From contig JAQZBQ010000008.1 in assembly GCA_029237825.1 (NCBI GenBank), positions 1 through 64,000 of the forward strand: a stretch of 64,000 bases of DNA. Direction: 5' to 3'. The stretch is from Bacteroidota bacterium (GTDB lineage Bacteria; Bacteroidota; Bacteroidia; B-17B0; Aurantibacillaceae). The notes under the pieces were generated by a model. The model had not been told where the DNA came from. It saw nothing but the letters and a program-made list of their open reading frames with translations, and searched no databases. Below are positions 48,245-57,985 of this stretch, in pieces (the stretch's first letter is position 1; every line of letters starts with the position of its first letter). The position numbers and the translations under genes were made by a program.

Positions 48245-50929
48245 CTATTGCTTGATGACTTTATAGGTTTTTGAACCCTCTTTGGTTTCAATCTTTAAAT
48301 AATAGATGCCGTCTGCCAGCTCCTCAAGATTGACGTTTTTTGACAACAACCCGCTTCCTGTCATTACTTCGTCAGTTACAATCCTTCCCTCGATTGTCAT
48401 AATGTTTAAATGTGCATGAAGGTCGTCCGGTGAATTTATTTCCAGAGTAAAAATACCTGATGTTGGGTTTGGGAAAATGCGGATGCCGATATCCGATGTA
48501 AATTCCTCAATTGCCACACAGGCATTTACCACCAGCGTATCTTTTGCAACATTGGAACATCCGTTTGGCCCAACGTAATTATATAAAATGATGTGAGAAC
48601 CTTGCGTAGCTGTAGTTGGATTAAAGTAGCTTCCCAACGTTGTTGTAGTAACACCCGCGCCAATATAGGTACCATTAGCAGGAGTTCCTTCTGTTAAGGC
48701 GCGGTTCACATTATCGCTTTCGCAAAATGTTTTAGCGCTCGAAAAAACGAGCGATACAGATGGTTTTGGTTTCGAAGTAACAGTGATCAGGTCAGATGAT
48801 TTACATCCTATTGTATTCGTTACAGTTACAGAATATGTACCGGCTGTTCCAACGGAAATAGACGGTGAAGTTGCACCGGTATTCCATAAATAGCTGTTTC
48901 CTGACCCCGCTCCCGCATATAAATTGATTGTACTTCCCTGACAAAAAGCAGTGTCTGAACCGAGAGTCACGATTGGTGATGTACCTAATGAAACGAGTGC
49001 CGTATCGGAATTTATACAGCCATTTGAATTGGTTGCACGTATCCAGTATTTCCCTGGTGTGGTCACATTTAAACTGGAAGCAATTGAGCCATTATTCCAC
49101 AAAAATGAATACGCGCTTGTGTTGGCATTTAGGATAACCGGTAAACTACAATATAAGGAATCGGGTCCGAGGTTCGGAGTTGGAGTTGGTTTGATAAAAA
49201 TTCTTACCGTATCGTATGTCATGCAAGTGCCAATTGTTCCTTCCACCGTAAAAGTTGTAGTAGCGCCCACGTTTGCAATTGGATTCGCAATATTGGTGGC
49301 AGATAAACCTGCCGGTGCCGACCATGAATAAGTAATTGTTGCAGGCTGTCCAAACTCCACATTTGGTCTCTGGCTCATTGAACTGGAAGAGCTTGAACTT
49401 GAACAAAGCGTCGCGTCAACATCTGAATTATACCAAACCGAAGATGTGAACGGCGTGGTAGATTGCAGAACGGATACGTTTTGTGTGTATGCTAATGGAT
49501 TATTGTTAAAACACGTTTCTATAATAATATTGGAAACCCCGTCCCACACAAATGGTGTAGAAAAGGTGTGCGTGTTAATTCCCAAAACGGGTGTATAGCT
49601 TGGTGAAGAAAAATAGGTAGTGAAGCCAGTTGTTTGAAACGCGGTGAGGCTTGTAACAGTTGTTGTGGCAAGGGCAATGTTATGATTGATGAACGCGCCC
49701 GCCGTGTTTAAATTAGTTGCATTAAAAGAAATGGATGTCACGTTTCCTGCTACCAAACCTGCAGCTGTTAATTCGGAAGCTAAGTACAAAAATTGGTGCC
49801 TCGCGCCTTTATAAAAATTACCGTAAGGAGAAGGGTAGGAGGTGGAGGAATTGGAAATAGTTCCCGTTCCAACAAGTTTAGTTGAACTGAAACTGGCATT
49901 TAATTGAACAGGAACACCTAAACAAACACTATCATTAGGAAGTATGCTTGTGGAAAATACCGGGTTACGGGTAATCGTTCTTTGCGTTGTATCATTAATT
50001 ACAGATCCGTCGCCAACCACTGTGGCATAACCTTTTAATTTATAGGTGCCGATATTGGACAGGTTATAGTTAGTAGTTAGGGTAAAATCCTGTGTTGCGT
50101 TGCTGGCAAGAGTTCCGCTATTTACAGCCACGGTATAGGTGCCCGGGTTCGGACCTGTTGTTTTAACAGTGATGATGGCTGGAGTTACAGAAAAGTCTGC
50201 CACCGCCGAACCATAATTTTTCAATGCCACAACAATCGTGTCGTTCGCGAAACATGTTTTCGTACTAAGCGGTTTCAGAAATGAGCTAACACCCAGGTCG
50301 AGGGGTGCCGGTGGCAAAAATTCAAACTGGATCTGCGGTTTGTTTGATGAAGTTGATGAACAGGCAACACCACACTGCGGACTTGAATCGCTACGGACAA
50401 AAATAAATCCACTCGGTACAGTTGGACTATAAATTCTTACCACACCTGTTGAAGTGTAAGCTGAAACCTGATCAAAACATACATCCACCAAAATATTGTC
50501 GGTGCCGTTCCATAAAAATGGCGTAGATAAGGTAAGCATATCAAAACCGCCGGCAGGAGGGTTGTAACTTGGAGTGTTATATACTGTGGTAAGACCCGTT
50601 CCATCATAAACAGCTACGTTATTTGCAGCAGTATGTTTTAATTTAATGGTATAATTCGGCAATGGATTAGTTACTCCACTTGCAATATAAAAACCAAGTT
50701 TCGTAAGGGTTCCACCCGTGATACCAACGGCATTTAATTCAGCTGCCGTATATACAATCTGGCAATGCAGGCTTCGGTAAAACTGATTAATTGGCCCGGC
50801 GGTAGTGGTGCCATGTACATTTGTTCCCGACCCTAAAGTTACAGTTACCTGCGAATAAGCAAGGGAGTTGCAGAAATAAATCAGTAAAATTCCAAGTATG
50901 GATTTTAAATTAAAGTAACGTTTTTTCAT
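48245..50929 (-). CDS. T9SS type-A sorting-domain secreted protein
   Basis: An 894-residue surface or secreted protein. A signal peptide (1-26, ending in SLAYS) precedes two copies of a module of roughly 170-200 residues (about 27-205 and 340-545). Shared landmarks are a tyrosine-rich YRSLHCQIVYTAAELNAVG / YKGARHQFLYLASELTAAG segment (single-module halves) and STPFLWNGTDNILVDVCF / STPFVWDGVSNIIIETCF. A CARDB-like domain sits between. Ig/SprB-like repeats with LWNNGSIAS and LWNTGATSP follow, then the type-A sorting domain at about 815-894: FPNPTSGIFTLEI, LADGIYYLKI and YKVIKQ. The modules resemble carbohydrate-binding or adhesive domains; no enzyme domain is seen. Confidence 0.88.
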   Translation of the reverse strand: MKKRYFNLKSILGILLIYFCNSLAYSQVTVTLGSGTNVHGTTTAGPINQFYRSLHCQIVYTAAELNAVGITGGTLTKLGFYIASGVTNPLPNYTIKLKHTAANNVAVYDGTGLTTVYNTPSYNPPAGGFDMLTLSTPFLWNGTDNILVDVCFDQVSAYTSTGVVRIYSPTVPSGFIFVRSDSSPQCGVACSSTSSNKPQIQFEFLPPAPLDLGVSSFLKPLSTKTCFANDTIVVALKNYGSAVADFSVTPAIITVKTTGPNPGTYTVAVNSGTLASNATQDFTLTTNYNLSNIGTYKLKGYATVVGDGSVINDTTQRTITRNPVFSTSILPNDSVCLGVPVQLNASFSSTKLVGTGTISNSSTSYPSPYGNFYKGARHQFLYLASELTAAGLVAGNVTSISFNATNLNTAGAFINHNIALATTTVTSLTAFQTTGFTTYFSSPSYTPVLGINTHTFSTPFVWDGVSNIIIETCFNNNPLAYTQNVSVLQSTTPFTSSVWYNSDVDATLCSSSSSSSSMSQRPNVEFGQPATITYSWSAPAGLSATNIANPIANVGATTTFTVEGTIGTCMTYDTVRIFIKPTPTPNLGPDSLYCSLPVILNANTSAYSFLWNNGSIASSLNVTTPGKYWIRATNSNGCINSDTALVSLGTSPIVTLGSDTAFCQGSTINLYAGAGSGNSYLWNTGATSPSISVGTAGTYSVTVTNTIGCKSSDLITVTSKPKPSVSLVFSSAKTFCESDNVNRALTEGTPANGTYIGAGVTTTTLGSYFNPTTATQGSHIILYNYVGPNGCSNVAKDTLVVNACVAIEEFTSDIGIRIFPNPTSGIFTLEINSPDDLHAHLNIMTIEGRIVTDEVMTGSGLLSKNVNLEELADGIYYLKIETKEGSKTYKVIKQ

Positions 50930-51028: not shown

Positions 51029-51129
51029 TAACATTAAATTTTTAAAACCTACCGTCTCGGTTAACAAAAAATAAGCAAGTGCTTACATAATTCACTTCTT
51101 TTTATGCGCCTATTTTGTATTTTTGTTTC

Positions 51130-51390
51130 ATGGATTCATTGATTTTTTTGTTTTTAAACCTCGGTGGTGGTGAAGTTGTTTTAATTCTTCTGGTTATTTT
51201 ATTGATGTTTGGTGGAAAAGGGATTCCCAATATTGCCCGGGCACTTGGTAAAGGAATCAGGGAATTTAAGGATGCTACTGATGGCATTCAAAAAGATGTA
51301 ATGAAAAGCACTGGGGGTATCACCAATACGATCCAGGAGCATATCCAGGAAGTTAAAAAAGAAGTGGATACCCTTTCCGACAATAAATAA
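51130..51390 (+). CDS. tatA: Twin-arginine translocase subunit TatA/TatE
   Basis: TatA forms the pore part of the Tat pathway for folded proteins. The 86-residue protein has a short N-terminal membrane helix (EVVLILLVILLMF), the FGGKGIPNIARALGKGIREFK hinge and amphipathic helix (split), and an acid/lysine-rich soluble tail. The ATG at 51130 (MDSLIFLF) gives the right helix position; a longer frame from 51115 adds MYFCF. tatC is not next to it. The PPIase cluster follows nine bases later in the same direction. Confidence 0.92.
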   Translation: MDSLIFLFLNLGGGEVVLILLVILLMFGGKGIPNIARALGKGIREFKDATDGIQKDVMKSTGGITNTIQEHIQEVKKEVDTLSDNK

Positions 51391-51398
51391 AAGGCGGC

Positions 51399-51944
51399 AT
51401 GAAGTTTTTTAATAATTTCTTACTGTTTGTGTCTTTACTTTTTTTTATTTCCTGTGAGCGGGATCAAAAAAAGCAAACCGTTTTCATTGATCAGGAAAAA
51501 GTTAAACATCAGTTTATAAAAGCAAACCAGCAGGTGGTTGTGAAAGAAAATGATGAAATGGATTATTACCAGAAATCCCATAATATGCCCTTTGTGAAAA
51601 CTAATTCAGGGATTAGGTATCACGTGTATTCACCGTCGGGGAAAGGCGACTCCATTAAAACTGATGATGTTATTCGGATTAATTATACAGTCTATCTTTT
51701 AGATGGAACTGAATGTTATTCTTCTAAAAACGATGGAGAGAAAGAATTCAAAGTTGGAATGGAAGACATCGAGAATGGATTGCATAAGGCAGTTCTATTT
51801 TTAAAATCTGGTGATAAAGCCCGTATTTTAATTCCCTCGCACCTTGCGCACGGTCTTTTGGGTGATTCAAAGAAAATTCCACCGCAATCACCAATCTTGT
51901 ATGATCTTGAAATCCTTTCAGTAGAAAAAGGTCATCGAAAATAA
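51399..51944 (+). CDS. gldI: FKBP-type peptidyl-prolyl isomerase lipoprotein, GldI-like
   Basis: A 181-residue lipoprotein (signal 1-18, Cys19 in FFISCERD) with one FKBP domain. Flavobacterium GldI, an FKBP-type lipoprotein needed for gliding, has the same size and layout, so I use that name with reserve. Catalytic positions are mostly replaced: the FKBP12 Phe36-Asp37 pair is absent (TECYSS), Trp59 is Leu (NGLHKAV), Tyr82 is His (LAHGLL) and Phe99 is Tyr (ILYDLE), while the first Tyr (INYT) is kept. It may act as a chaperone more than an isomerase. It is the first of four such genes in tandem. Confidence 0.75.
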   Translation: MKFFNNFLLFVSLLFFISCERDQKKQTVFIDQEKVKHQFIKANQQVVVKENDEMDYYQKSHNMPFVKTNSGIRYHVYSPSGKGDSIKTDDVIRINYTVYLLDGTECYSSKNDGEKEFKVGMEDIENGLHKAVLFLKSGDKARILIPSHLAHGLLGDSKKIPPQSPILYDLEILSVEKGHRK

Positions 51945-51950
51945 TTCCAT

Positions 51951-52832
51951 ATGCGGTTGAGGTATGTTTCTTTTTTTATTTCCATTCTTTTTTGTTTTGC
52001 TTGTAACAGAAACGAAAAACTGAAAGGATATACCCGAGATACTGATGGGTATTATTATAAGTTGATCGGATTGGGAGATGGAAATTTCAGTCCGGAAAGG
52101 GAAAGTATTCTGGTTTTTGACGCAGCGATGAAAACCCTCTCGGATTCTGTATTCTGGGATACAAAACATGACGCACCAAATGGTTTGTATGTTGATTTGT
52201 CTTTACTGAATTTCAGGGGATCGTCTCAAAAGCAATTTTTAAAGATGGTGGAAGGGGATAGTGTTTCTTTGATGATGAAACCCGCTGTTTTTTTTAGGTG
52301 TTATTTTGATACCGTTGTGCCACTATTTTGTAGTAAAGACAGTTTAGTGAAGCTGGATGTAAAGTTAAATCAAATCATTTCAAGGGCTGAATACCTCGCT
52401 CTTATTAAAAATTCGCAGGGAGAGGAAGTAGAAGAGGATACCGAACTCGAAGAGTTAAAGGAGATAGAATGTTACCTGTCGCAAGATAGAAAAGGCATTT
52501 CCCCTGATCATAATGGCATTTATACCTTAGAGCGAACCCACACTACTTTAGGGAAGGTTACACCGGGAAAAAAAATAAAATTGGCATACCAGGGATCCTT
52601 TATCGATGGGCGGTTAATCGATCCCCAACAACAAACGATAGAATACGTGTATGGCACGCCTGATCAGCTTATTAAAGGGTTAAATATTGTTATTGGCACA
52701 TTAAAAAAAGGTGAAACTACAAAAATAATAGTACCTTCGCGCCTGGCTTTTGGCGAATCAGGAAGTAGCAATGGTTCTATTCCACCTTATACACCTCTTG
52801 TCTACACACTTAAAATAATTGATATAAAATAA
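51951..52832 (+). CDS. FKBP-type peptidyl-prolyl isomerase-like lipoprotein
   Basis: A 293-residue probable lipoprotein (signal ending at about Cys19, FCFACNRN) with two FKBP-like halves. The N-terminal half (about 20-145) is highly diverged and recognisable mainly by its pairing with the same part of the next gene (opening GYTRDTDGYYYKLIG). The C-terminal half has LAYQGSFIDGRLID, IKGLNIVIGTLKKGE and SRLAFGESGSSNGSIPPYTPLVYTLKI (split). Phe36 is Ile, Trp59 is Leu, Tyr82 is Phe and Phe99 is Tyr relative to FKBP12, so activity is doubtful. It starts six bases after the GldI-like gene. Confidence 0.8.
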   Translation: MRLRYVSFFISILFCFACNRNEKLKGYTRDTDGYYYKLIGLGDGNFSPERESILVFDAAMKTLSDSVFWDTKHDAPNGLYVDLSLLNFRGSSQKQFLKMVEGDSVSLMMKPAVFFRCYFDTVVPLFCSKDSLVKLDVKLNQIISRAEYLALIKNSQGEEVEEDTELEELKEIECYLSQDRKGISPDHNGIYTLERTHTTLGKVTPGKKIKLAYQGSFIDGRLIDPQQQTIEYVYGTPDQLIKGLNIVIGTLKKGETTKIIVPSRLAFGESGSSNGSIPPYTPLVYTLKIIDIK

Positions 52833-52837
52833 AAAAA

Positions 52838-53785
52838 ATGAACAAAACCTCTATGTTATTAGGTTCTGCACTGTTAGCAGGACTTTTTGCCTGTAACAAA
52901 TCAGAATTTGATGGCTTTACCAAAGCAGAAAACGGGTTACATTATAAATTTTTTACGCCGGATGAAAACGGAGTTAAAGCAACGGAAGGCGATGGCGTAA
53001 GTATTAAGATTGTTTACGCATTAAAAAAGAACCCTTCCGATTCAGTTTTATTTGACTCAAAATTAAATTCCGAGGACGGCTCCGGTACAGTAAGGTACAT
53101 TTTGCCTAAATCTTCCTTTAAAGGAAGTTTGGAAGACGCTATCGCAATGATGGCAAAGAATGATAGTGCGGCGTTTATCATCAGTGCAGATTCTTTTTTT
53201 CTTAAGACAAATCGCATGCAGGCCCTTCCGGAATTTGCTAAACCCGGAGATAAGTTAGTCATCAGTATTAAGATGGTTGACATTAAATCTAAAAAGGAGC
53301 TTGAAGAGAATCAAAAGAAACAGGAAGCTGAAATGAATCAGTTATCTGAACAGGAGAAGCCAAAACTGGACGCGTATTTAGCGGAACATAAAATTACTGC
53401 AAAGCCTACCGAAAGTGGTTTGTACGTAATTGAAACGAAAAAGGGAACTGGTGCAAAGCCTCAGGCTGGTGACGAGGTTTCTGTAAATTATACTGGTCGT
53501 TTATTAGATGGAACCATATTTGATACGTCGATTGAAGCAGATGCTAAAGCAGGAAATGTATATAATCCTCAAAGACCGTATGAGCCTATTAAATTTGCAC
53601 TCGATCAGGGTCAGGTAATCAAAGGATGGGATGAAGCGTTAAAGTTGTTATCAAAGGGCGGGAAAGCCCAGCTGATCATTCCATCGAACCTTGCTTATGG
53701 CCCGAGAGGCGGCGGACCAATTCCTCCATTTTCAACCTTAGTGTTTGATGTAGAATTGGTTGATTTTAAATCGGCAGGAAAATAA
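52838..53785 (+). CDS. FKBP-type peptidyl-prolyl isomerase lipoprotein, active-site intact
   Basis: A 315-residue lipoprotein (Cys19 in GLFACNKS) with a diverged N-terminal FKBP-like half (25-145), a helical KEKEL/EENQKKQEAEMNQL-type linker, and a well-conserved C-terminal FKBP domain. The key residues are all present: VNYTGRLLDGTIFDTS (Tyr, Phe-Asp), IKGWDEAL (Trp), LAYGPRGGG (Tyr) and LVFDVELVDF (Phe). It is therefore likely to be a true periplasmic or outer-membrane-attached isomerase. It starts five bases after the preceding degenerate paralogue. Confidence 0.88.
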   Translation: MNKTSMLLGSALLAGLFACNKSEFDGFTKAENGLHYKFFTPDENGVKATEGDGVSIKIVYALKKNPSDSVLFDSKLNSEDGSGTVRYILPKSSFKGSLEDAIAMMAKNDSAAFIISADSFFLKTNRMQALPEFAKPGDKLVISIKMVDIKSKKELEENQKKQEAEMNQLSEQEKPKLDAYLAEHKITAKPTESGLYVIETKKGTGAKPQAGDEVSVNYTGRLLDGTIFDTSIEADAKAGNVYNPQRPYEPIKFALDQGQVIKGWDEALKLLSKGGKAQLIIPSNLAYGPRGGGPIPPFSTLVFDVELVDFKSAGK

Positions 53786-53820
53786 TTGATACTTAAAACC
53801 CAATACTAAATAAATAAAAA

Positions 53821-54882
53821 ATGAAAAAAGTAATTTTAGCATCGCTGTTTGCCTTAGTATCCCTGGGATTAGTAGCGCAAAACAAACCTAAAAAAGCTAA
53901 AAAAATTAAATTAACTAAAATGGATAAAGAATTTTTAAGTAAACAGGAAGATGGCATGTATGCCAAATTTGAAACGTCTAAAGGAGACATTTATTGTGTA
54001 TTGGAATATAAAAAAACACCAATGACGGTAGCTAATTTTGTTGGTTTAGCAGAAGGTTCAATTAAAAATACCGCAAAGGGCGAAGGTGTTCCTTATTATG
54101 ATAGTTTAAAATTTCACCGTGTGATTCCAAATTTCATGATTCAGGGTGGTTGTCCGCTTGGAACAGGAACCGGTGATCCTGGTTATAAGTTCGGCGATGA
54201 ATTTGACGAAACATTAAAACATACGGGACCTGGTATCTTATCAATGGCCAACGCAGGTCCGGGTACTAACGGTAGCCAGTTTTTTATTACGCATGTGAAA
54301 ACTGACTGGCTCGATGGAAAGCACACGGTTTTCGGACATGTGGTTACAGGCCAGTCTGTAGTAGATTCAATTAAGCAGAATGATGTATTAAAGCACCTAG
54401 TAATTTTAAGAAAAGGAAAAGAAGCAGAAGCATTTGATGCACCTAAAGTGTTTGAGTTTGAAAAAGCAAACGCTGGCGCTAAGGCAGAAGCTAAAGCGAA
54501 AGCCGAAAAGGAAAAGATGGATAAAGTATTAAATGAAACGTATGGCTCCGCTAAAACGACACCTAGCGGTTTACGCTATATCATTGAGAAAGAAGGTGAA
54601 GGAACTCCTCCAACTGCAACCTCTCAGGTTACTGTTCATTATTCGGGTTACCTGCTCAATGGAAGTAAATTCGACAGTTCAGTTGACCGCGGACAACCAG
54701 CAACGTTTGGTTTGAACCAGGTTATAAAAGGGTGGACTGAAGGATTACAGTTATTGAAACCGGGTGGCAAAGCAAAGTTAATTATTCCTGCAGAATTAGG
54801 CTATGGTGCAAATGGTTATCCACCAGTTATTCCTCCAAATTCATGGTTAGTGTTTGATGTGGAATTGATCAAAGTAAACTAA
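53821..54882 (+). CDS. Cyclophilin-FKBP fusion peptidyl-prolyl isomerase
   Basis: A 353-residue exported protein joining two unrelated isomerase folds. A signal peptide (1-19, ending in LVAQ) precedes a cyclophilin domain (about 48-215) with [19 protein letters not shown] and [18 protein letters not shown], both split, and [12 protein letters not shown], so its catalytic Arg, Gln and His are kept. An Ala/Lys/Glu-rich linker leads to an FKBP domain (about 240-353) with [31 protein letters not shown] and LVFDVELI, also complete. It ends the four-gene isomerase cluster and has a terminator behind it. Confidence 0.93.
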
Positions 54883-55025: not shown

Positions 55026-56477
55026 ATGCAGTTAACGCTTAAGAAATTCAATTCGAATACCCTGTTTTTTATTTTTTGGGTATGCATGTCCTTTTACCTC
55101 TTGGTAAGAGCATATTACGTTGATATCACAGACGACGAGGCATGGTCTTATTATAATGTAAAGCGGTTCTGGTGGGTTGAGGTTTTATGTTCTGGCAACA
55201 CGCACTGGTTTAATTTTTTGGCGATTAAGACTGCACTAATGTTAGGATTGGAAAAGACCTGGCATCTGCGATGGTTTAGTCTACTGTCGGGAGTTGTATT
55301 TCTTTACATTGGATATCGCTGGATCATTACATTCTCCAATTTGGCAGTAAAAGTTTTTGCATTTTCGTTGCTGTTCCTCAATCCCTACCTCGTTGAATAT
55401 TTAACCCTTGCTCGTGGCTATTCTGCCGCATTGTGTTTTGTAGCGCTTAGCTTTTACTTTTATTGTAGAACTGAAAGGCGTATTATAATTTCCGTGCCGC
55501 TCTTATTTGCCGGACTAAGTGCGATCGCCAATTTCAATTTCTTTTATTTTTTTGTTCCTTTTGCCTTGATGTATTTTGTCAGCTGTTACCTGAAGGATAA
55601 ATCTTGGCTCTTTAAAAGCAAAGCATTCTATTTTGATATGCTGTTTGTTCTGGGTGTTTCGTTCCTGGTTTTACGTGCTTTGTGGTTTATTAAACTCTGT
55701 TCAAACGATATCGGAAGCTTTGGGGGAGATAACCTCATTAGGTCCGTTTTTGGCAGTTACCTTGATACCTTGTTTTACGGGCAGTTTTATTTCCCTTCAT
55801 CCGTGAAAGATTTACTTGGCGTAGTGTTGCTCATCCTTGTTTTAGGCGGATCCGTTTACGGCATCCTCAAATTTCAATCGCACCAAATTAAATTATTTAC
55901 AATGTCTTCATGTGTGCTGCTTGGTATGTTGATTCTTGTTGTGTTTAACCATGTCTGCTTCAACATACTTTATCCAACCGAACGAACTGCCCTTATGTTT
56001 TACCCGGTGGCTGTTATTGTGACTGTTTTTTTTCTCAATGATGTTAACTGGGCACATTCCGTTAAACAGAGTTTATTTGGATTGATTAGCACGTCACTTA
56101 TTATTAATTTTTTTAAAACTGCCTCGGCCGTTTCAGGATATGATCATTCTTACTGCATGAAGACAAACCAGTATTTTGAATTCCTGGCTGAGACTCCGGC
56201 CAGGCGTGTTGGTTTAGCGGTTGAAGTGTATTTTGTATACCTCAAGTATTACAAGCATACCACTTGTAATTTTTATGCAGAGTCCATTAATGAATACAGG
56301 ATAAATCCCCGATATTTATTTGATCACCAATTAGAGGATTTTGATTACCTTTTATTGCTGCCTCCGTATAATTTAAAGTATTATAAAACTAGCCCGATAT
56401 CATTCGTGCCTGTAAAATATTTTCAGGACACGGGGGCGTTAATTGTAAAAGTGACGAAAGTACCTGTTAGTTCCTGA
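55026..56477 (+). CDS. GT-C-like membrane glycosyltransferase, tandem copy 1
   Basis: A 483-residue multi-pass protein with about ten membrane helices. After the first helix comes an acidic loop VDITDDEAWSYYN, like the catalytic Asp/Glu loop of GT-C enzymes that use polyprenyl-phosphate sugars, and then FWWVEVLCSGNTHWFNFLAIK. LARGYSAAL and SAIANFNFFYFF are shared with the next gene. The substrate is unknown. The gene is followed by its paralogue after a 44-base gap, with similarity along the whole length. Confidence 0.72.
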   Translation: MQLTLKKFNSNTLFFIFWVCMSFYLLVRAYYVDITDDEAWSYYNVKRFWWVEVLCSGNTHWFNFLAIKTALMLGLEKTWHLRWFSLLSGVVFLYIGYRWIITFSNLAVKVFAFSLLFLNPYLVEYLTLARGYSAALCFVALSFYFYCRTERRIIISVPLLFAGLSAIANFNFFYFFVPFALMYFVSCYLKDKSWLFKSKAFYFDMLFVLGVSFLVLRALWFIKLCSNDIGSFGGDNLIRSVFGSYLDTLFYGQFYFPSSVKDLLGVVLLILVLGGSVYGILKFQSHQIKLFTMSSCVLLGMLILVVFNHVCFNILYPTERTALMFYPVAVIVTVFFLNDVNWAHSVKQSLFGLISTSLIINFFKTASAVSGYDHSYCMKTNQYFEFLAETPARRVGLAVEVYFVYLKYYKHTTCNFYAESINEYRINPRYLFDHQLEDFDYLLLLPPYNLKYYKTSPISFVPVKYFQDTGALIVKVTKVPVSS

Positions 56478-56521
56478 TTCCAATTAATCATTTAAATTAA
56501 TGCTTTTTGTATATTTATTCA

Positions 56522-57985
56522 ATGCAGAGCATCAAGAACCGCTTTCTTATTAATACAATATTTTTCTTTCTCGTTTATGGATTAATGTTTTATGTTGTAT
56601 TGCGAGCTGTTTTTATGGATATCACTCATGATGAGGCCTATTCATTTTACAACGCGAAACATTTTTGGTGGGTAGAAACTCTGTGTACAGGCAATACCCA
56701 TTGGTTCAATTTCCTTGCGATTAAAACCTGCCTATTGTTCGGGCTCGAAAAAGCAAGTCAGTTACGTTGGTTTACATTATTATCGTCGGGGATTTTTTTA
56801 ACGCTTGTTTATTATTGGATCCGAAGTATTCGCAGTTTCCATGTAAAAGTTTTTGCTTTTGCAGTATCTGTTCTGAATCCATTTTTAATTGATTATCTGT
56901 CATTAGCACGGGGCTATTCAACGGGGCTTATGTTCGAGACTTTAAGCATCGCTTTCTACTTTATTTCAATTAAAAAAAGGAAGCGGTCCATCGGCACGTT
57001 CTCATTGTTGCTTGCGGGCATGTCTGCCATCGCTAATTTTAATTTCTTTTATTTTTTTGCAGCTTTCTCAATCGTCTATTTTTTTCAGTTTCATTTCAAG
57101 AAAAGAAGTCAATTTTTAAAGCAACCGTTGTTTTATTGGGAAGTTTTATTTGTTTTCTTTATTTCAGCACTGGTATTAAAAGCACTTCATTTCATTACGG
57201 TTTGTTCCAACGATATCGGTGCATATGGTGGTGAAGATTTGGTTTCTGGAGTTTTCCGGGGATTTATACATACTCTGGTGTATCGCGAAGGCATTCATTT
57301 GTCGCTTATCGATGGGTTTGCATTTGTTTTTTGTTTAGGGATCTGTATGGCATGCATTTACGGAATTCGATTAACACGTAAACACAGGAACGAGACTTAT
57401 GCGTTTTCCAGCTCTGTACTGCTGATTATGATTATATTAACGCTTGTAACGAAACTGGCTTTTGGTGTATTGTATCCTACGTATCGCACCGCGCTCATGT
57501 TTTATCCCTTGTTTTCATTGGTTTTAGTTGGTTTTTTGAGTGCAATAATTACAAACATAAAACTCCGACGGGTAATTTTTATTGGTTGTGGTGTTGTACT
57601 AGCTTTAAATTTTTGCAGTACCCTGAGCTTAAGACGAAGTTTTGATTACTGGCAGCAGTCTGATACAAAAAAAGCGTTTACTTACCTTGACAGGATCGGC
57701 GCAAATTATGTAGGGGCTTCGCCTGAGCTTTACGGTGTTTACCGTAATTATTATCAATTAACAGATCACCAGCGATTTCACTTTGAGGGTACCAGAATCC
57801 ATACAATGGATCCAAAAGGTTTGGATGCAACCGGTGTAAGCCTCCAAAAATTTGAGTATTTAGTGTTGTTTCCGCCTTATGATTTAAGTTTTTACAGAGC
57901 CAATAGGGTGAGGTTTGAGGGAATGATGTATTTCCCTAACACGGGCACATTGATTTTAAAGTGCGTCGCAATTACGAAGCTTTAA
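56522..57985 (+). CDS. GT-C-like membrane glycosyltransferase, tandem copy 2
   Basis: A 487-residue paralogue of the preceding gene. It has the same acidic loop (MDITHDEAYSFYN), FWWVETLCTGNTHWFNFLAIK (split), LARGYSTGLM and SAIANFNFFYFFA. The paralogues differ most in the C-terminal third, where the acceptor site may lie. I chose the ATG at 56522 (MQSIKNRF), since the TTG at 56507 adds an unlikely MYIYS. No other glycan gene is adjacent, so a pair acting on one lipid-linked sugar is only a guess. Confidence 0.72.
   Translation: MQSIKNRFLINTIFFFLVYGLMFYVVLRAVFMDITHDEAYSFYNAKHFWWVETLCTGNTHWFNFLAIKTCLLFGLEKASQLRWFTLLSSGIFLTLVYYWIRSIRSFHVKVFAFAVSVLNPFLIDYLSLARGYSTGLMFETLSIAFYFISIKKRKRSIGTFSLLLAGMSAIANFNFFYFFAAFSIVYFFQFHFKKRSQFLKQPLFYWEVLFVFFISALVLKALHFITVCSNDIGAYGGEDLVSGVFRGFIHTLVYREGIHLSLIDGFAFVFCLGICMACIYGIRLTRKHRNETYAFSSSVLLIMIILTLVTKLAFGVLYPTYRTALMFYPLFSLVLVGFLSAIITNIKLRRVIFIGCGVVLALNFCSTLSLRRSFDYWQQSDTKKAFTYLDRIGANYVGASPELYGVYRNYYQLTDHQRFHFEGTRIHTMDPKGLDATGVSLQKFEYLVLFPPYDLSFYRANRVRFEGMMYFPNTGTLILKCVAITKL

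Follow-up and report, generated by a model that had tools for sequence, protein, structure and literature searches.

A cluster of four FKBP genes at positions 51,399 to 54,882 of a 64,000-nucleotide stretch of a Bacteroidota genome (assembly GCA_029237825.1, contig JAQZBQ010000008.1; the whole stretch is called the window below) appears to be a GldI locus, one that would supply envelope folding factors to the gliding machinery and the type IX secretion system (T9SS), and whose first gene would encode a binder rather than an isomerase. We assign this reading a probability of roughly 0.6. The genome carrying the window is 3.55 Mb in size and 99.7% complete, and the named genomes closest to it are assemblies of uncultured Bacteroidetes/Bacteroidia.

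A first-pass annotation, made from the letters of this DNA, had described four consecutive genes with FKBP domains, and this description holds. Genes 1 to 4 are consecutive plus-strand open reading frames (ORFs) with intergenic gaps of 6, 5 and 35 bases, and all four have Pfam FKBP_C matches (E values of 6.6e-15, 6.9e-14, 2.3e-30 and 5.3e-31, respectively); we infer that they form a single transcript. Judged by eye, the N termini of genes 1 to 3 contain a lipobox Cys, while gene 4 has a signal-peptide-like N terminus without one, and a simple lipobox pattern matched in 31/36, 26/40, 44/45 and 6/44 sequences of genes 1 to 4. All four products are predicted to be exported to the envelope. The features are as follows (aa, amino acids).

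51115..51390, plus strand: tatA-like gene, 8 bases upstream of gene 1 (Pfam TatA_B_E, E 6.7e-17)
51399..51944, plus strand: gene 1 (P1), GldI-clade FKBP-fold lipoprotein, 181 aa, lipobox Cys19 (FKBP_C; AlphaFold2 [AF2] model)
51594..51926, plus strand: gene 1 FKBP domain with alternative pocket (alignment to FKBP12, 36 sequences)
51951..52832, plus strand: gene 2 (P2), two-domain FKBP lipoprotein, 293 aa (Pfam; AF2)
52029..52382, plus strand: gene 2 hidden N-terminal FKBP-fold domain, residues 27-144 (AF2 strand order, Foldseek, hhalign)
52494..52829, plus strand: gene 2 C-terminal FKBP domain, with D37 kept and W59L, Y82F and F99Y (FKBP12 alignment)
52838..53785, plus strand: gene 3 (P3), two-domain FKBP lipoprotein, 315 aa, paralogue of gene 2 (hhalign)
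52916..53293, plus strand: gene 3 hidden N-terminal FKBP-like domain, residues 27-152 (hhalign with controls)
53405..53773, plus strand: gene 3 C-terminal FKBP domain, canonical core pocket (FKBP12 alignment)
53821..54882, plus strand: gene 4 (P4), cyclophilin-linker-FKBP dual isomerase by domain content, 353 aa, no lipobox (Pfam)
53962..54384, plus strand: gene 4 cyclophilin domain, intact active-site residues (comparison with cyclophilin A positions)
54607..54870, plus strand: gene 4 FKBP domain, canonical core pocket (FKBP12 alignment)

The pocket of gene 1 and its probable tie to GldI and GldJ

We compared the four proteins with FKBP12 at pocket positions taken from PMC8530231 (this and the other cited papers are drawn on here as excerpts). 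Minimum lengths of 165, 230, 270 and 320 aa were set for the proteins of genes 1 to 4, and the alignment then comprised 36, 40, 45 and 44 sequences, with the window's own among the 36 of gene 1. Nine core positions were compared (Y26, F36, D37, V55, I56, W59, Y82, I91 and F99), and E54, I90 and I91 are positions that we take to belong to the FKBP12 pocket. Gene 1 keeps Y26 and carries F36C, D37Y, I56E, W59L, Y82H, H87D, I90K and F99Y, in agreement with the annotation's statement that this GldI-like gene retains the first Tyr and loses Phe-Asp, Trp, Tyr82 and Phe99. In its own numbering, the pocket residues are Y96, C106, Y107, K115, E125, L128, H151, D156, K159, I160 and Y168. At F36, D37, W59, Y82 and F99 it reads C, Y, L, H and Y, and the sequence alignment finds no intact pocket in this protein; intact residues in the first two proteins had been named in advance as the outcome that would speak against the annotation.

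These replacements are widespread among relatives. Asp87 is found in all 36 aligned sequences, Tyr37, Glu56, Lys90 and Tyr99 in 34 each, Cys36 in 32 and His82 in 28, and position 59 is Leu, Val, Ile or Met in 36/36. The 25 relatives found with a GldI profile, 5 of them from genomes also represented among the 36, have Tyr37 and Asp87 in 25, Glu56 in 24, Cys36 in 22, Lys90 in 21, His82 in 19 and Tyr99 in 17. We relied on these two sets, since a further 79 rows found by pattern are biased at positions 82 and 87, both of which the scan pattern includes. The lipobox Cys19 is invariant in the 53/53 rows of alignment A3 (alignments A2, A3 and A4 cover part of the listed relatives). Cys106, at the F36 position, is the sole conserved Cys beyond this lipidated one (32/36), and five bona fide GldIs, introduced below, are without it.

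Read from these alignments, the pocket of gene 1 is an alternative one close to fixation, not a decaying enzyme site, and the gene product probably binds rather than isomerizes. FKBP catalysis does tolerate single changes, as in SlyD, where Y63F (the equivalent of Y82) retains 76% activity (PMC5034536), and one could suppose that gene 1 still isomerizes through a rearranged pocket. This seems very unlikely, given that F36, D37, I56, W59, Y82 and F99 are altered together in gene 1 and that charged residues occupy the I56 and I90 positions.

By tree grouping and by its lipobox, which marks it as a lipoprotein by sequence, gene 1 belongs to the GldI clade. The cut-off of TIGR03516, the GldI model, is passed in only 5 of the 198 genomes of the class that we sampled; these five bona fide GldIs all come from one family, presumably Flavobacteriaceae, and have Tyr37, Asp87, Lys/Arg90, I91 and Leu/Ile59 in common with gene 1 in 5/5. 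In a tree of 71 chosen FKBP-domain rows and 119 columns, which has many weak forks, a bootstrap that is not fully settled and few outside FKBPs, 17 gene 1 rows and the five GldIs (22) split from the 49 rows of genes 2 to 4 and FKBP12 at 100/99, and they do so again at 100/99 with 14 pocket positions masked. GldI is nested inside the gene 1 rows, and gene 4 is weak as a single group (30/80). Because the gene 1 pocket is shared with its relatives and with the five GldIs, it is a trait of the GldI clade rather than a loss in this genome. A further 118 class genomes carry the gene 1 type below the TIGR03516 cut-off, and this clade may be under-annotated by the model.

GldI has been reported to be needed for the stability of GldJ and GldK (PMC9127263), its stabilization of GldJ is also reported in PMC11705866, and GldK is unstable in such mutants (PMC8444969). 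We called the gene 1/GldI type at a profile E value of ≤1e-35 or above the GldI cut-off (the best E values leave a gap from 1e-37 to 1e-30) and called GldJ at E ≤ 1e-60. The gene 1 type is present in 123/198 genomes, and GldJ accompanies it in 120 of these 123, compared with 46 of the 75 genomes without it; the three gene-1-type genomes that lack GldJ are 60, 69 and 85% complete. Counted by family under a majority rule, GldJ is present in 37/37 families with the gene 1 type versus 17/29 without it (Fisher p 1e-5). SprA, found in 122/123 gene-1-type genomes versus 69/75 others, is little informative because it occurs in 191/198 genomes overall. The genome carrying the window itself encodes the T9SS gene sprA, and a GldJ homologue lies on the operon's contig, approximately 56 kb downstream of the operon (contig 28, 110976-112058), which exceeds the cut-off once neighboring in-frame matches are added. 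By eye, this homologue sits between PorP/SprF-like and MurF-like genes (locus L207, G000:C28:109932-113972). The suggestion in the first-pass annotation that the cluster serves T9SS or outer-membrane cargo thus gains partial backing, from sprA, from GldJ on the same contig, from the grouping of gene 1 with GldI and from its occurrence almost only alongside GldJ.

Several observations weigh against tying gene 1 to GldI and the T9SS in this way. Gene 1 scores 81.4 bits on TIGR03516, below the cut-off of 157.6, and we rejected it as an equivalog of that model. Its Cys36, Glu56 and His82 are missing from all five bona fide GldIs, and the GldI branch in the tree is long (1.17). The AF2 model of gene 1 (predicted local distance difference test [pLDDT] score of 92.4) has as its best VIA-align match the T9SS isomerase 6h3i_B (Z 18.9, 1.9 Å, 128 residues, 20% identity), with which FkpA (Z 18.6) and MIP-type structures tie. 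The co-occurrence thresholds were set after the score gaps had been seen, and families are not independent of one another. Finally, GldJ does not always need gene 1, because it persists in 46/75 genomes without it.

The three genes behind gene 1

Of the nine core positions, gene 2 keeps Y26, D37, I56 and I91; V55L, Y82F and F99Y are conservative, and F36I and W59L are clear losses. The annotation's statement that the second gene loses most of its catalytic positions was therefore too strong, with 4/9 kept and 3 conservatively changed. At F36, D37, W59, Y82 and F99, the C-terminal domain of gene 2 reads I, D, L, F and Y, and in alignment A2 (54 rows) Asp occupies position 37 in 40 rows and Glu in 13, Leu occupies position 59 in 38, and Phe or Tyr is found at position 82 in all 54. 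Since SlyD keeps 76% of its activity with a Phe at the Y82 equivalent, gene 2 cannot be called dead, and its C-terminal domain would be either weakly active or binding. The idea that some members of the set are not isomerases thus applies to gene 1, which is without a prolyl-isomerase pocket, but not to gene 2, whose pocket is conservatively altered and not callable as non-catalytic.

Genes 3 and 4 keep all nine core positions, F36, D37, W59, Y82 and F99 included, and nearly all of their 45 and 44 sequences do likewise. The claim that both genes keep every position is accurate for this core, whereas F46, H87 and I90 are altered in both, and R42 is kept in gene 4 only. By its residues, the C-terminal FKBP domain of gene 3 is probably active.

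Genes 2 and 3 each contain a second domain, which the earlier annotation had overlooked. No Pfam domain match over the cut-off covers residues 27-144 of gene 2 or 27-152 of gene 3. The N-terminal profile of gene 3 nevertheless aligns with the protein's own C-terminal FKBP domain at an hhalign probability of 97.9% (score 74.3, 109 columns), with scores of at most 19.1 in 100 column shuffles. The N-terminal profile of gene 2 matches FKBP profiles at 88-96%, scoring 37.2 against its own C-terminal domain and 47.2 against that of gene 3 (shuffled maxima of 18.5 and 18.3), and neither N-terminal domain matches a clean cyclophilin profile (0.2% each). In the AF2 model of gene 2 (pLDDT 89.8; predicted template modeling score [pTM] 0.52, with domain orientation unsure), the FKBP strand order is visible by eye in both halves, and the best 16 Foldseek matches are multi-domain FKBPs aligned over 251-291 columns, FKBP52 among them over 287 columns. 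VIA-align rows for gene 2 span its C-terminal domain only, for which 6h3i_B is found at Z 16.2 and 26% identity, with FkpA and MIP structures within 1 Z. The two genes are full-length paralogues (family hhalign 100%, 290 columns), the only such pair shown among the four. On profile evidence, supplemented for gene 2 by AF2 and Foldseek, we conclude that genes 2 and 3 are tandem FKBP proteins with two FKBP-fold domains per chain. With positions assigned by eye, the N-terminal domain of gene 3 has Asp at the D37 position in 25/34 sequences and Leu, Phe, Ile or Val at the W59 position in 34/34, which describes a non-canonical pocket as far as residues can tell; the columns equivalent to I56 and F99 align uncertainly in the N-terminal domains and were set aside.

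The fourth gene had been credited with a complete cyclophilin domain, and this proved correct. The Pfam match has an E value of 2e-43, and gene 4 keeps 11/11 of the positions that we take to form the active site of human cyclophilin A, each of which is conserved in 35-37 of 37 sequences. Gene 4 has the cyclophilin, linker and FKBP in the order of the CFBP family, with both sites intact, and is probably an active cyclophilin-FKBP isomerase exported without a lipid anchor. Among the 51 members of the gene 4 set, 37 have a cyclophilin domain and 14 do not, with replacement being common beyond the nearest relatives; the four that we scanned of these 14 have two or three FKBP domains each. At three loci (L061, L062 and L050), the gene at the place of gene 4 has three FKBP domains and no cyclophilin, and at three others (L130, L132 and L144) gene 4 is followed by a further gene that resembles it.

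Differences in pocket integrity among the four genes could also reflect decaying duplicates, with genes 1 and 2 losing function. Both genes deviate from the FKBP12 pocket, and gene 2 has the highest ratio of nonsynonymous to synonymous substitution rates (dN/dS) of the four genes in 6/7 pairs of relatives. Over these seven pairs, however, dN/dS was 0.00-0.10 for gene 1, 0.05-0.21 for gene 2 and 0.01-0.14 for genes 3 and 4, ratios that are rough given a dS of >1 in several pairs and one partial gene 1 pair, and which indicate purifying selection on all four genes. We rejected decay on these low values, and the near fixation of the replacement residues in gene 1 and the near-full-length frames in 36 gene 1 and 40 gene 2 loci leave it scarcely credible. 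At one locus (L142, from 5531), gene 2 is broken into ORFs of 312 and 64 aa, reflecting either a damaged gene or an assembly error. Because rows with the same gene label group strongly together in the tree (5 label changes across 5 groups versus a shuffled mean of 41.2), the four genes are, to judge from the tree, old lineages and not a recent graded series. The picture of graded loss within a locally duplicated set is therefore not sustained: the substitutions of gene 1 are near-fixed and partly those of GldI, and dN/dS lies at 0.00-0.21 for genes 1 and 2.

Cluster conservation and the genomic setting

In 76 of 80 loci found with the gene 1 pattern, the same-strand chain behind gene 1 contains one or more additional FKBP or cyclophilin genes, and in 56 it contains at least three, counts that short loci limit; these loci partly come from genomes also used elsewhere in the analysis. 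The best 30 loci found with the GldI profile include 29 with at least one such gene behind. Clustering of FKBP and cyclophilin genes exceeds chance, and the operon is present in other families of the class, so the cluster is conserved; an unconserved cluster was the other outcome named in advance as counting against the annotation. A cyclophilin-FKBP gene comes next in 4/5 bona fide GldI loci, and the fifth has separate genes there, first for an FKBP and next for a cyclophilin. Because bona fide GldI loci show the same neighbors, GldI plus cyclophilin/FKBP is common to both locus types. In that fifth locus (L095, 2034-3523), cyclophilin and FKBP are split over two genes, and the gene for the FKBP also encodes an FkpA-type FKBP_N domain. 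A review assigns the Flavobacterium johnsoniae cyclophilin-FKBP to gldI (PMC6316441, in the excerpted text); in the five bona fide GldI loci (L091-L095), GldI and cyclophilin/FKBP are adjacent yet separate genes.

The annotation had also proposed checking the synteny of tatA and the isomerases across the phylum. TatA adjoins gene 1 in 17/17 same-genus loci that include gene 1 and upstream sequence, but in 0/18 loci outside the genus, and we rejected a tatA-isomerase unit beyond the genus on this count. The tatA gene is probably a genus-level neighbor that lies outside the conserved unit; a second TatA-type gene is found elsewhere in the genome, on C22. The close spacing of tatA and gene 1 (8 bases), its constancy within the genus and the resemblance of the gene 3 and gene 4 pockets to those of ordinary active isomerases would all suit a set of general folding factors of the periplasm, transcribed together with tatA for Tat/Sec cargo and with no special tie to gliding or the T9SS. 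We consider this improbable, as the FKBP cluster persists outside the genus without TatA beside gene 1 and as gene 1 is nested among GldJ-bearing genomes.

All exported FKBPs that we detected in the genome lie in the operon, although a very divergent one could be missed. A search of the genome with the gene 3 (P3) family profile at E ≤ 1 found only the four operon proteins. The only other FKBP_C match falls on a small protein that ends in a His-rich tail and has PRK10737 (101 bits, cut-off 174), presumably a SlyD-type model, as its best NCBIfam match. A second exported-looking cyclophilin of approximately 280 aa is encoded at G000:C13:257456-258319 (L206).

Separate F. johnsoniae genes encode the SprA-bound isomerase, GldI and BamM (PMC9127263, PMC12611786); in the genome studied here, any of these roles would fall to a single operon. 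Alternatively, the lipoproteins may be structural components of machines in the outer membrane, equivalent to the SprA translocon isomerase or to BamJ, BamK or BamM of the β-barrel assembly machinery (BAM), with the FKBP fold serving as a scaffold. The SprA-bound isomerase 6h3i_B tops the VIA-align matches of both gene 1 and the gene 2 C-terminal domain, 9hjm_I, a chain of the Porphyromonas gingivalis BAM complex, matches gene 2 at Z 14.1, and no further exported FKBP was detected by the FKBP_C and P3-profile searches. BamM, BamJ and BamK are surface lipoproteins (PMC12611786, PMC12578637), whereas, among sequences matching the simple lipobox pattern, at least two acidic residues among the six after the lipobox Cys are found in only 9/31 for gene 1 and 3/26 for gene 2, compared with 22/44 for gene 3. 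On this basis we rejected the idea that genes 1 and 2 carry the signal of surface lipoproteins: surface export is not indicated for either by sequence and is possible for gene 3. Genes 1 to 4 score 57.9, 42.4, 96.3 and 94.8 on the BamJ model NF053689, all below its cut-off of 100, and genes 3 and 4 were rejected as BamJ. With FkpA and MIP structures within 1 Z of the SprA-bound isomerase as well, we regard the structural-subunit explanation as unlikely.

Other genes surround the operon. A divergent minus-strand gene at 48245-50929 of the window encodes a protein of 894 aa that bears a T9SS type A sorting domain, a possible T9SS cargo neighbor; a homologue is present in 12/17 same-genus loci with gene 1 and in 0/18 other loci. 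Behind the operon, at 55026-57985 on the plus strand, two tandem large ORFs of 483 and 492 aa are alike and, by eye, membrane-like, with homologues in 8/17 same-genus loci.

Proposed roles and known systems

In the GldI-locus reading that we favor, gene 1 would have retained the FKBP fold while its prolyl-isomerase pocket was swapped for a conserved polar one, and it would hold a specific gliding or T9SS client, most likely while GldJ/GldK fold or assemble. Genes 2 and 3 would be anchored proteins in which a non-canonical N-terminal FKBP-like domain, suited to substrate-holding or docking, precedes an FKBP domain, and gene 4 would act unanchored. More tentatively, the GldI family as a whole may be a re-purposed, non-catalytic, client-specific binder (of GldJ, for example) that works in a relay from holder to isomerases, gene 1 passing clients to genes 3 and 4. 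The binder part would depend on a nearly invariant Tyr-Asp-Lys pocket, joined in most sampled gene 1 relatives by a Glu and a Cys that would be exposed to the periplasm, and the relay part on the two-domain lipoproteins, each combining an FKBP domain with a second FKBP fold of non-canonical type.

Reports describe GldI as essential for gliding, and it bears the name of an isomerase, but the family to which it belongs is without the isomerase pocket and keeps another, which makes the role of GldI for GldJ/GldK directly testable. For organisms in which the isomerase subunits of the translocon and BAM are unknown, the operon also supplies a definite set of exported FKBPs. The kinds of family involved are known, and what is added here is the family-wide GldI pocket, the hidden N-terminal domains and the wide occurrence of the cluster; a literature search did not find these three described, although they may still have been published.

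Compared with known systems, gene 1 most resembles GldI (TIGR03516), the gliding lipoprotein of F. johnsoniae: both are lipoproteins with a C-terminal FKBP fold, fall in one tree group and come from similar loci, whereas only the gene 1 type has Cys36, Glu56 and His82, and gene 1 stays under the TIGR03516 cut-off. Gene 4 shares its domain order and two intact active sites with the dual-family CFBP isomerases such as FjCFBP39 (PMC6316441), and differs in sitting in a four-gene cluster with two-domain FKBP lipoproteins. Tandem FKBP-fold domains like those of genes 2 and 3 occur in FKBP51/52 (FK1-FK2) and wheat FKBP73. In FKBP51/52 the second domain is the non-canonical one, whereas in genes 2 and 3, which are lipoproteins, it is the first, and the domain orientation of gene 2 is unlike that of FKBP52-type proteins (root mean square deviation of approximately 20 Å across both domains). 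The T9SS translocon isomerase subunit (PDB 6H3I, chain B) is the best fold match of gene 1 and the gene 2 C-terminal domain, a likeness of fold alone given identities of only 20 and 26% and the FkpA/MIP tie. BamJ, BamK and BamM of the Bacteroidota BAM are likewise lipoproteins with an FKBP fold and belong to this phylum; on the BamJ model, genes 3 and 4 score close to the cut-off with all four genes below it, and genes 1 and 2 differ in having mostly few acidic residues after the lipid anchor.

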